Origin: Sulfolobus sp. A20 | GTDB taxonomy: Archaea > Thermoproteota > Thermoprotei_A > Sulfolobales > Sulfolobaceae | Assembly (NCBI RefSeq): GCF_001719125.1 | Contig: NZ_CP017006.1 | Coordinates: 1,488,001 to 1,552,000, forward strand | Reading direction: 5' to 3' | DNA length: 64,000 nucleotides | Part shown: piece after piece, positions 9,130 to 11,936 of the stretch | How positions within the stretch are numbered: the first letter of the stretch is position 1 | Layout: every line of letters begins with the position of its first letter | Notes under the pieces: model-generated | Seen by the model: the letters and a program-made list of their open reading frames with translations, nothing else | Databases searched by the model: none | What the model was told of the DNA's origin: nothing | Program-made: the position numbers and the translations under genes

Positions 9130-9455
9130 ACATTTACTTAGATATCTATATTTATATTTCATAAATTACAAAAAATTATAACAAATATACTATCCAGTTA
9201 GATTTAAAGAGACGTCTCTGCTACAGCTTTCATAATTTTATATTTAAATGCCAAATATCAATTTTCGGAGTATTGTAGTCTATCTTTTGTTTACAAAAAT
9301 GAAGCCTGACTAGCGGAAGGAAGTCAGTTATTTCGCACATTCTTGATTAAGCGGTTATACCTTTTTAATATATTTACCCCATATACTTAAAAACTTTTGA
9401 ATCAAAAATCTGAAATGCTTTTATAGTATTTTAACTAAAATTAAATAATGATATA
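9130..9455. other. Intergenic region with IS-like hairpin remnant and operon promoter
   Basis: No ORF of note. It holds a degraded IS200/IS605-type right-end motif at 9301-9327 and, near its end, a TATA-like TTTTATAGT (about 9419-9427) roughly 30 bp before the ATG of the ATP-grasp gene. A short GAGACGTCTC palindrome lies at about 9209-9218. Confidence 0.5.
9301..9327 (+). repeat. Degraded IS200/IS605-like right-end motif
   Basis: Reads GAAGCC...GGAAGGAAGTCAG, the decayed form of the hairpin-plus-AGTCAG ends seen elsewhere in this window. No transposase remains nearby. Confidence 0.45.
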
Positions 9456-10769
9456 ATGATTAAACCAAGAAAGATGTCTGAGGCTAGATCCTTCTTTGAG
9501 TATGATGAGCCTTATTACTCTAGTTTAATAGATAAAATAGGTAAAATTTCAAATTTTTTCGAGTATGTCGATTTAATAAATGAGTTAGCGTATAAAGAAG
9601 GATTTACGTTTTACACGCAAACCTATTTTAGATCAATAAAAATTGATCCAATTCCGAGAATATTACGATATCAAGAGTTTAGAGAAATATCAAATGGGTT
9701 GAAAAATCGAGCCCTTGCAATAAACAAGTTTCTTTACGCCACTTATCATGGTGAAGATACACCTGTTCCAAAAAGTATCATAACGTCTTCTCCTTATTTT
9801 AGACCAGAGATGATGGATTTTGATCCCCCAAAAGGGATATACGTGTATATTTTTGGAGAAGATATTGTGAAAGTTAATGGACTTCCTTTGATCCTAGAAG
9901 ATAATGTTAGAATACCATCTGGTATGAGTTACGCGATAAAGGCTTCTGAATTGGTCAATAGAATTTTAGGTAAAACAATATCAATACCTAAGCAAGAAGA
10001 TGATGGATTAATATTATTAAGAAAAACACTTAAGTACGCTTCAGATACGAGAGATCCAGTAATTGCTATACTAACGGATGGAACTTTAAATTCAGCCTAT
10101 TTTGAGCATAAGTTCTACTCTGACAATCTAGATCTTCTCCTCATAGAACCGTCTGATCTCGTAATAAAAGATGGAGAAGTAGTTGCTAAGACGTTAGATG
10201 GAGAAATTCACATAGATGTTATTTACAGAAGAATAGAAGATTTAGACGTTCTAACCCCAGGGTTGATGAAAGCATACCTTAGAGGTTGGGTGAACATAGT
10301 CAATGCACCCGGTACAGGTATTGCTGACGATAAGATAACCTTCTGTTACATGCCCCAGATCATGGATTATTTTGGAATAAAGGAAGGAGTAAGACAACCC
10401 TTCTCTATTCCCTTAGGTGCTTCAAAGGAAGATGTGATAAATAAAGTTGAAAACATGGTTTTGAAGAGAAGAGAAGGTTATGGTGGGTCTGGTACTTTCG
10501 TCATCAAAGATTTAAGGGAAGAGGATAAGATGAAGATTTTAAGAGAAGTTCTAAGCTATCCTGAGGAGTTCATGGCTCAAGAGCTATTAAACTTTGATAC
10601 TGTATTATCAGCCATAAATGATAATTTTTATGAAACCTATGCAGATTTAAGGTTCTTTGTCTTTATAGATGTAGCTTCCAATACTATTTTAAGTAGAGTT
10701 GCGCCTTTAGGAAGTAGGGTTACGAATAACTCATCTGGCGGGCTGGTGAAACCAGTATGGGTAGTTTAA
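9456..10769 (+). CDS. Circularly permuted ATP-grasp protein (COG2308 type)
   Basis: A 437-residue cytoplasmic enzyme of the circularly permuted ATP-grasp family, predicted to form amide or peptide bonds using ATP. Hallmarks in order: LEDNVRIPSG (about residue 147), DVIYRR, the NAPGTGIADDK loop, the lysine-containing LKRREGYGGSG phosphate loop, AQELL, DLRFF and a final SSGGLVKPVWV. It heads an operon with a transglutaminase (13-base overlap) and an alpha-E protein; this trio is a recurrent but uncharacterised association in prokaryotes (Iyer and Aravind's ATP-grasp surveys). The natural substrate is unknown. A shorter ATG at 9448 hits a stop at once, so 9456 is the start. Confidence 0.88.
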   Translation: MIKPRKMSEARSFFEYDEPYYSSLIDKIGKISNFFEYVDLINELAYKEGFTFYTQTYFRSIKIDPIPRILRYQEFREISNGLKNRALAINKFLYATYHGEDTPVPKSIITSSPYFRPEMMDFDPPKGIYVYIFGEDIVKVNGLPLILEDNVRIPSGMSYAIKASELVNRILGKTISIPKQEDDGLILLRKTLKYASDTRDPVIAILTDGTLNSAYFEHKFYSDNLDLLLIEPSDLVIKDGEVVAKTLDGEIHIDVIYRRIEDLDVLTPGLMKAYLRGWVNIVNAPGTGIADDKITFCYMPQIMDYFGIKEGVRQPFSIPLGASKEDVINKVENMVLKRREGYGGSGTFVIKDLREEDKMKILREVLSYPEEFMAQELLNFDTVLSAINDNFYETYADLRFFVFIDVASNTILSRVAPLGSRVTNNSSGGLVKPVWVV

Positions 10770-11554
10770 AATATAAGGTGTTTTATCAGGCAGAATATGA
10801 ATACGAGGACGTTGTTATACTTAACGATAATACATTGAGAATAGTTCCTTATGATGGGGATAATCAACGTGTAATTGAAGAGATTCTAGAGACTGAGCCT
10901 AAAGGTTATATTATAAGATTTAAGGACAACTTTGGAAATATAGTGTATAGAGAAAAGATTTTGGATCCACATAATAAGATGATAATTAGAAGCAAGAGTA
11001 TGGTGGAAGTGTATCCTAAGGTATTTAAGGATTGTAGAATTCCTTGCTCTGAGGACCTAGTTTTTACCTCTTCCTCTAGCTTAATAGATGTTGATTATTT
11101 TAAGAACATTGCGTCAGAATTACTAAAAAGTAATACGACTCTCGATGAATTCCTTAGAGCTACAGTTAACCTGGTTAAAGATAGGGTAAAATATAAGACA
11201 GGATTAACTGATGTCTCTACTAAGGCTCATGAGAGTTTCGAATTAGGTTATGGAGTTTGTCAAGATTTCGCCCAAATAACTATAGGTATATTAAGGGCTG
11301 CTGGAATTCCTGCAAGGTACGTAATGGGTTTAGTGAATGATACACCTAAGACTACACATGCATGGGTTGAGGTAAAATCAGAGGATGGATGGATACCTAT
11401 AGATCCTACTAGGAATAAGTTCTATGATTTACAATATGTTAAGTTTGCTATAGGTAGAGATTATAATGATGTAGCTCCAATAGTTGGTACGTTTATCTCG
11501 AAGGGTAGGGGATGGTTAAAGCAAATCATAGTAGAGGTGAAACAGATTGATTAA
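10757..11554 (+). CDS. Transglutaminase-like cysteine protease domain protein
   Basis: A 265-residue protein of the COG1305 class. The N-terminal third is the beta-rich domain usual in this family; the C-terminal half holds the catalytic triad: Cys in GYGVCQDFAQ, His in THAWVEV and Asp in WIPIDPT. There is no signal peptide, so it acts in the cytoplasm with the adjoining ATP-grasp enzyme. It may cleave, transfer or process the peptide made by that enzyme (inference). It overlaps the previous gene by 13 bases and the next by 8, so the three are translated together. Confidence 0.87.
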   Translation: MGSLKYKVFYQAEYEYEDVVILNDNTLRIVPYDGDNQRVIEEILETEPKGYIIRFKDNFGNIVYREKILDPHNKMIIRSKSMVEVYPKVFKDCRIPCSEDLVFTSSSSLIDVDYFKNIASELLKSNTTLDEFLRATVNLVKDRVKYKTGLTDVSTKAHESFELGYGVCQDFAQITIGILRAAGIPARYVMGLVNDTPKTTHAWVEVKSEDGWIPIDPTRNKFYDLQYVKFAIGRDYNDVAPIVGTFISKGRGWLKQIIVEVKQID

Positions 11555-11936
11555 GAGTACAGCATATAAAGTCTATTGGGCTGGGAGATATTTAGAGAGA
11601 ATAGAAAATATCGCAAGATTTGGCGTATATTTTGCTGAGAAGGGAATACCAATTGAAGATATGAATAAGATTCTAGGTATTGATGACGTTTTCTCATACC
11701 TTTTTAATGAGTTCAAAATATTAAGAGAGGACATTAGAGCATTTGGAGATGAGGCAAGTATTAACGCATTATCGGCATTAGAGGCTAGCATCTATGCCAA
11801 AAATAATGATCTGAAAAGTTATTTCATGAACGTCTTAAACTCCGCATTATATGTCTTAAACGTAATTGAGGAGAATCTTAAGCCTAAGTCTATTTCTATA
11901 ATGCCGAAAAAACAAGAGGAAATTCGTTCTCAATAA
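11547..11936 (+). CDS. Minimal alpha-E domain protein
   Basis: A 129-residue all-helical protein from a TTG start that overlaps the transglutaminase stop region. Its opening VYWAGRYLERIENIARF and the later LREDIRAFGDEAS match the alpha-E (DUF403, COG2307) signatures, whose usual form is about 300 residues. Here less than half the usual length is present, although both hallmark segments are kept, so it looks compact rather than broken. It ends in a basic, polar tail. Alpha-E proteins travel with permuted ATP-grasp and transglutaminase genes, but their molecular role is not established. Confidence 0.75.
   Translation: MIKSTAYKVYWAGRYLERIENIARFGVYFAEKGIPIEDMNKILGIDDVFSYLFNEFKILREDIRAFGDEASINALSALEASIYAKNNDLKSYFMNVLNSALYVLNVIEENLKPKSISIMPKKQEEIRSQ

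Follow-up and report, generated by a model that had tools for sequence, protein, structure and literature searches.

In a 64,000-nucleotide stretch of the genome of Sulfolobus sp. A20 (Sulfolobaceae), referred to below as the window, we find an operon of three plus-strand genes for an ATP-grasp ligase, a transglutaminase-like protein and a small alpha-E protein (Table 1). Judged by sequence comparison, the trio is genuine, intact and functional-looking, co-conserved among relatives and under purifying selection, and its alpha-E is a single copy of a helical unit that full-length alpha-E carries twice in tandem. With confidence and doubt in about equal measure, we propose that the operon represents a functional archaeal branch of the predicted amide-bond system ATP-grasp/alpha-E/transglutaminase, known mainly from bacteria, in which a homodimer of the mini alpha-E would rebuild the scaffold and hold both enzymes.

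Table 1. Features of the three-gene operon in window coordinates.
Feature	Position	Strand	Basis or remark
Candidate archaeal TATA box, tttatagta	9419..9428	+	~28 nt upstream of first ATG; read from sequence
Circularly permuted ATP-grasp amide-bond ligase (predicted), 437 aa	9456..10769	+	PF14403, PDB 3n6x, 16/60 relatives
ATP-grasp catalytic segment EDNVRIPSG, residues 148-156	9897..9923	+	Invariance in archaeal set
ATP-grasp nucleotide segment, K337 R339 GYGG	10464..10487	+	Invariant 17/17
Transglutaminase-like protein, 265 aa	10757..11554	+	Begins 13 nt inside ligase gene; PF01841, PF08379, PDB 3isr
Catalytic Cys168 codon (GVCQD)	11258..11260	+	Invariant 17/17; C177 in open-frame numbering
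Catalytic His201 codon	11357..11359	+	Invariant 17/17; H210 in open-frame numbering
Catalytic Asp216 codon (IDPT)	11402..11404	+	Read from sequence; past frameshift in 1/17 archaeal trios
Mini alpha-E, 129 aa, TTG start	11547..11936	+	8-nt overlap with transglutaminase gene; PF04168, alignments, model
Hallmark segment 1, YWAGRYLERIENIAR, residues 10-24	11574..11618	+	Invariant residues in relatives
Hallmark segment 2, LREDIRAF, residues 59-66	11721..11744	+	Aligns to ARENxRxxR, bacterial repeat 1
Tail motif KKQEE, residues 121-125	11907..11921	+	Low-confidence C-terminus, pLDDT 60-70

Successive genes overlap by 13 nt (ligase/transglutaminase) and 8 nt (transglutaminase/alpha-E), the three frames are intact, and the catalytic residues are in place (EDN-R-PSG and K337/GYGG in the ATP-grasp protein; C168, H201 and D216 in the transglutaminase), as the preliminary description had it. 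The candidate TATA box would drive a single leaderless tricistronic transcript. The same trio occurs in the same gene order in 16 of 60 relatives, which is beyond chance. Ka/Ks, calculated for two of the three genes, lies at 0.05-0.06 (ligase) and 0.04-0.09 (alpha-E) in the three pairs with usable Ks (for each gene, two of five pairs had infinite Ks and were left out). PADLOC returned no match for the operon, and its classification as a defence system was rejected on this ground.

The ligase matches Pfam CP_ATPgrasp_2 (PF14403) with an E-value of 1.1e-75, and its residues 59-436 align to the circularly permuted ATP-grasp protein PDB 3n6x (E 2.5e-55). Seven residues of the catalytic segment (E148, D149, N150, R152, P154, S155 and G156) are invariant in 17/17 archaeal ATP-grasps. 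These matches assign the protein to the circularly permuted ATP-grasps with intact EDN and K motifs. In a phylogenetic tree the archaeal ligases group together, apart from the bacterial ones (support 100/100), if L051 and L052, Sulfolobaceae loci known by name but unlabelled in the tree, are counted in. The second protein matches Transglut_core (PF01841; E 3.9e-22) and Bact_transglu_N (PF08379; E 3e-13) and resembles the transglutaminase-like protein PDB 3isr (E 2.5e-11) in its Cys-His-Asp core, which places it among the transglutaminase-like proteins. In one relative (G002; L112, near 10316-10337), a frameshift, either genuine or due to a sequencing error, breaks the transglutaminase frame, with the flanking ligase and alpha-E genes otherwise intact.

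The third protein scores 24.2 bits against Pfam Alpha-E (PF04168; cut-off 20.8), with the match confined to residues 5-25 and to 21 of the 294 profile positions; the alpha-E of G168, an archaeon outside Sulfolobaceae, covers positions 9-92. It shares with this family the N-terminal ER-motif helix and, over this short match, a score above the cut-off, and differs from it by the absence of the second repeat. Both hallmark segments had been described as kept. The first, YWAGRYLERIENIAR, is certain, and W11, G13, R14, Y15, L16, E17, R18, E20 and R24 are invariant in 16/16 Sulfolobaceae sequences. R60, E61 and R64 of the second are likewise invariant (16/16), but LREDIRAF can be equated with the ARENxRxxR helix only via alignments or a 12-sequence profile.

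The length difference pointed out earlier, 129 residues against about 300 usually, is real. Samples of three bacterial phyla gave 75 alpha-E matches in 47/80 genomes, 27 in 26/80 and 13 in 10/80. All 115 lie in frames of at least 310 amino acids, and 114 span almost the whole profile, the exception covering positions 2-237. When lengths are compared across archaea of this phylum, in line with the preliminary description's suggestion, alpha-E is short in 16/16 intact Sulfolobaceae (129-143 amino acids) and has 169 amino acids in G168. The case that the same description had set against itself, full-length alpha-E in relatives and a frameshifted or truncated copy in the window, is rejected because all 16 intact relatives are short and purifying selection acts on the frame.

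Profile comparison identifies full-length alpha-E as a tandem duplication of a helical unit. HHalign aligns repeat 1 with repeat 2 at a probability of 99.3% (E 7.9e-21, 128 columns) in 30 alpha-E found with the family profile, the best-scoring 30 of 75 matches. A set of 41 bacterial alpha-E fetched via the pattern WAGRYLER gave 98.5% (E 1.7e-15), and the best of 40 shuffled-column controls on this set scored 17.2 against the real 90.7; since selection by WAGRYLER biases helix 1 toward the query, the test was redone on the 30 profile-found sequences. By the same comparison the archaeal protein is one unit and closest to repeat 1: the E-value is 9.3e-11 over 25 columns against the unselected repeat 1 (6.7e-11 over 66 columns with G168 added) and a weaker 2.1e-5 against repeat 2. 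Its half size is explained by the copy number of the unit, one here against two in bacteria. Aligned to repeat 1, the mini alpha-E lacks a middle segment, part of which is retained in G168, and the graded series of about 310, 169 and 129 amino acids suggests that repeat 2 was lost first and the loop later, rather than that the single unit is ancestral. A separate repeat-2 gene was rejected, as PF04168 matches one place only in the genome, though a very diverged repeat 2 could escape this search. An alpha-E that is one of two tandem repeats, and short in 16/16, supports the earlier suggestion of a simplified archaeal version of the system.

In AlphaFold2 models, full-length alpha-E shows a repeated helix order (pLDDT 94.5), and the mini alpha-E is predicted to be a helical bundle (pLDDT 91.1) with a C-terminus that is probably disordered (tail pLDDT 60-70). 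The mini model resembles ordinary four-helix bundles. Foldseek gave no PDB match for the alpha-E models at an E-value of 0.001, and the best VIA Z scores (9.8 for full-length, 11.4 for mini) both lie within the helical-bundle background. Neither search assigns alpha-E to a known fold, but this negative result is no evidence of a new one.

How might one such unit work? Of the closed alpha-E frames from bacteria or loci, 130 in all, 104 were scored as stand-alone, 8 as N-extended, 11 as fused to a ligase and 7 as fused to a transglutaminase; the ligase/alpha-E and alpha-E/transglutaminase fusions were confirmed with Pfam in 4/4 scanned (two of each). Because the bacterial fusions join alpha-E to each enzyme, it most likely sits between the two. 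The mini alpha-E probably pairs with itself to rebuild a two-fold scaffold. In the reading that we prefer, this homodimer would restore the pseudo-two-fold scaffold that bacteria fuse to ligase or transglutaminase, and would hold the two enzymes together. The ATP-grasp enzyme would activate a carboxylate as acyl phosphate and join the acyl group to an amine, and the transglutaminase-like Cys enzyme would transfer, edit or hydrolyse the amide, with no dedicated Anbu peptidase involved. A tandem duplication together with a natural single unit offers a direct structural hypothesis, homodimer versus pseudo-dimer.

Alternatively, ligase and transglutaminase might form a synthetase/amidase pair acting on a small molecule, for which the bifunctional glutathionylspermidine synthetase/amidase is a model, with alpha-E as a regulator and not a scaffold. 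The sole PDB relative of the ligase, 3n6x, was indeed deposited as a putative glutathionylspermidine synthase. We nevertheless consider this unlikely, since the ligase reaches no NCBIfam model of such synthetases and the direct fusions point to alpha-E as a structural component. Also in favour of the pair, the B. cenocepacia cluster (ligase, alpha-E, two transglutaminase proteins) depends on NtrC and is down 6- to 9.4-fold in an ntrC mutant according to an excerpt of PMC5491218, which fits nitrogen metabolism.

The C-terminal tail brings up a different role for alpha-E. Q123 and E125 are invariant in 16/16 Sulfolobaceae sequences, within a stretch of ~18 residues that is otherwise variable, and Gln accounts for 35 of the 315 residues in the tails but 29 of the 1802 core residues. 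The tail of G168 ends TRQNQTRHQQQ. Exposed Gln tends to be avoided in the proteins of thermophiles. Pup with PafA/Dop and the amino-group carrier LysW are models for a reading in which the mini alpha-E is itself the substrate or carrier, that is, the tag: the ligase would load the Glu carboxylate of its flexible tail, [KR]xQ[EQ]E, or the tail Gln would serve as acyl donor for the transglutaminase. Gln-rich tails recur in several bacterial phyla (e.g., QIPQQQQ, SQSQQQQQQ, TQTQSQSQSQS), and 39 non-redundant bacterial tails of at least 10 amino acids contain 10.6% Gln against a mean of 4.7% (maximum 8.9% in 2000 draws) for a control of 711 mechanical ORFs of at least 250 amino acids, some of them spurious; the count of six bacterial tails with QQQQ was equalled in the most extreme control draws. 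However, among the 81 non-redundant bacterial alpha-E, 37 lack a 10-residue tail and another 5 are C-terminal fusions, and many of the tail-less ones adjoin a transglutaminase gene. A universal transglutaminase-substrate tail was therefore rejected as a general rule. Tail conservation alone is not exceptional, because 2 invariant positions of 18 resemble the 18 of 111 in the core; it is the Gln enrichment that stands out from the sequences as exceptional. Pup- and LysW-like carriers differ in having a conserved C-terminal carboxylate residue, whereas the final residue of the 16 Sulfolobaceae alpha-E varies (Q, E, K, R, D, L or F) and an internal Gln/Glu is conserved instead. The fusions, moreover, give alpha-E the look of an enzyme part. 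For these reasons we hold the carrier role to be rather improbable. It would be a long shot that the 129-residue protein is a self-contained tag or carrier whose dimer docks both enzymes and whose tail, [KR]xQ[EQ]E, receives an isopeptide-linked group built there by the ligase and transferred by the transglutaminase. If true, a tag or carrier would mean that archaea conjugate proteins by a system with no relation to ubiquitin-like or Pup modifiers, and the conserved tail Gln/Glu makes a residue-level test possible.

Other patterns were seen in bacterial alpha-E tails. L070, L082 and similar loci have two alpha-E each: one stands alone and has a Gln-rich tail, the other is fused to the ligase and lacks such a tail. 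In the sample of the third bacterial phylum (L178-L194), tails have the form LPFTGIGGGRANWSQSQQQQQQ, and the C-termini at L154, L158, L160, L164 and L167 end RPPVTTPFTGGTSA. The two have PFTG in common, which is perhaps a linear motif.

The ATP-grasp/alpha-E/transglutaminase system was reportedly described by Iyer in 2009, with a predicted role in peptide synthesis or protein tagging. Since the system is known and its sparse archaeal presence is in print, we regard the trio as a new variant and not a new system. According to Fuchs 2017 (PMC5666114), Anbu often shares an operon with genes for transglutaminase, ATP-grasp and Alpha-E, whose products are sparse in archaea. Excerpts of PMC6376114 report that a bacterial ATP-grasp relative releases orthophosphate from ATP, and that pull-downs of Y. 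bercovieri operon proteins with Anbu as bait gave no specific complex, which counts against our preferred reading; a role in peptide synthesis or modification is cited in an excerpt of PMC3597751. The portions seen of PMC12239564, PMC12096838, PMC8407117, PMC11237513 and PMC8665760 contain nothing on the trio in archaea. No internal alpha-E duplication, short archaeal alpha-E or Gln tails were found in the literature listings searched. The tandem duplication and the archaeal single unit, which we take from sequence as new here, may, like the Gln tails, already be in Iyer 2009, the likeliest place.

The trio resembles the bacterial ATP-grasp/alpha-E/transglutaminase(/Anbu) operon in that the three families are adjacent and co-oriented with intact catalytic motifs, and the alpha-E gene adjoins the other two in overlapping genes (conserved 16/16). 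In contrast to the bacterial alpha-E of two units and ~310 amino acids, archaeal alpha-E has one unit and 129-169 amino acids, is without Anbu and accompanies a ligase of a separate archaeal clade. We class the trio as a variant because it lacks the two-repeat full-length alpha-E of all bacteria sampled. An Anbu operon proper requires an Anbu gene, which is absent from the window operon and from the genome. The earlier remark that no Anbu lies nearby can be extended accordingly: the whole genome has three proteasome-family genes, more than 600 kb from the operon, and as their best matches are the archaeal 20S alpha, beta and beta models, i.e., ordinary 20S subunits, there is no Anbu among them. 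The 20S alpha match is above the subfamily cut-off and below the equivalog cut-off because the stretches scanned were partial. Biochemical reconstitution should be simple with this core-only version, which has a single alpha-E unit and three small overlapping genes, does without Anbu and occurs in thermophiles open to genetics.

The window ligase has matches in 16 of the 60 relatives and alpha-E in 18 at an E-value of 0.01, of which 16 are intact. Each intact alpha-E sits behind ligase and then transglutaminase, and the order ligase-transglutaminase-alpha-E holds in 16/16 Sulfolobaceae trios. Neither ligase nor alpha-E has a match in the 29 genomes that belong to other families of the order. 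The two non-intact alpha-E matches are a 74-amino acid fragment without ligase (G019) and a weak, unsure match with five stops (G005; E 9.5e-4); tblastn at E 1 in G005 gave a single weak stretch of alpha-E and nothing convincing as a remnant of ligase or transglutaminase. The G019 relic (L113, 8550-8768, minus strand) has only the C-terminal 73 residues of alpha-E, 93% identical to G010, and its ligase and transglutaminase are gone. Among 31 Sulfolobaceae genomes (G000-G030, own genome included), 16 have the intact trio and 15 do not. Also against our preferred reading, the operon is dispensable, since it is absent from these 15, the G002 transglutaminase is frameshifted and G019 keeps an alpha-E fragment alone. 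That the operon is decaying, with the short alpha-E a functionless truncation product, is scarcely credible: its patchy occurrence in the family, the relics in G019, the relic-like match in G005 and the frameshift in G002 would fit, but the 16/16 intact relatives are equally short, Ka/Ks is 0.04-0.09 and the catalytic residues are invariant.

Of 398 genomes of the phylum, 12 have a PF14403 match over the cut-off and 13 a PF04168 match at an E-value of 0.001; 12 genomes have both (11 Sulfolobaceae and G168). The thirteenth alpha-E match, in G408, is below the cut-off and located in a coiled-coil protein region. G168 is an ammonia-oxidising archaeon with archaeal AmoA (PF12942 matched, PF02461 did not), and its gene order is transglutaminase, 169-amino acid alpha-E, ligase. 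Two plasmid searches of 117 records each had no archaeal name among the matches listed (30 and 60). Two operon copies were never seen in one genome. The window ligase is 71% identical to that of G010, which belongs to another genus, and 52% identical to those of four members of its own genus; the ligase tree groups it with G010 (support 98/93). These patterns point to horizontal transfer as a likely event, or else to an ancient duplication whose copies were lost differentially. Set beside G001-G006, the window operon is closer to other genera (71%, 67% and 61% in the ligase) than to its own (52%).
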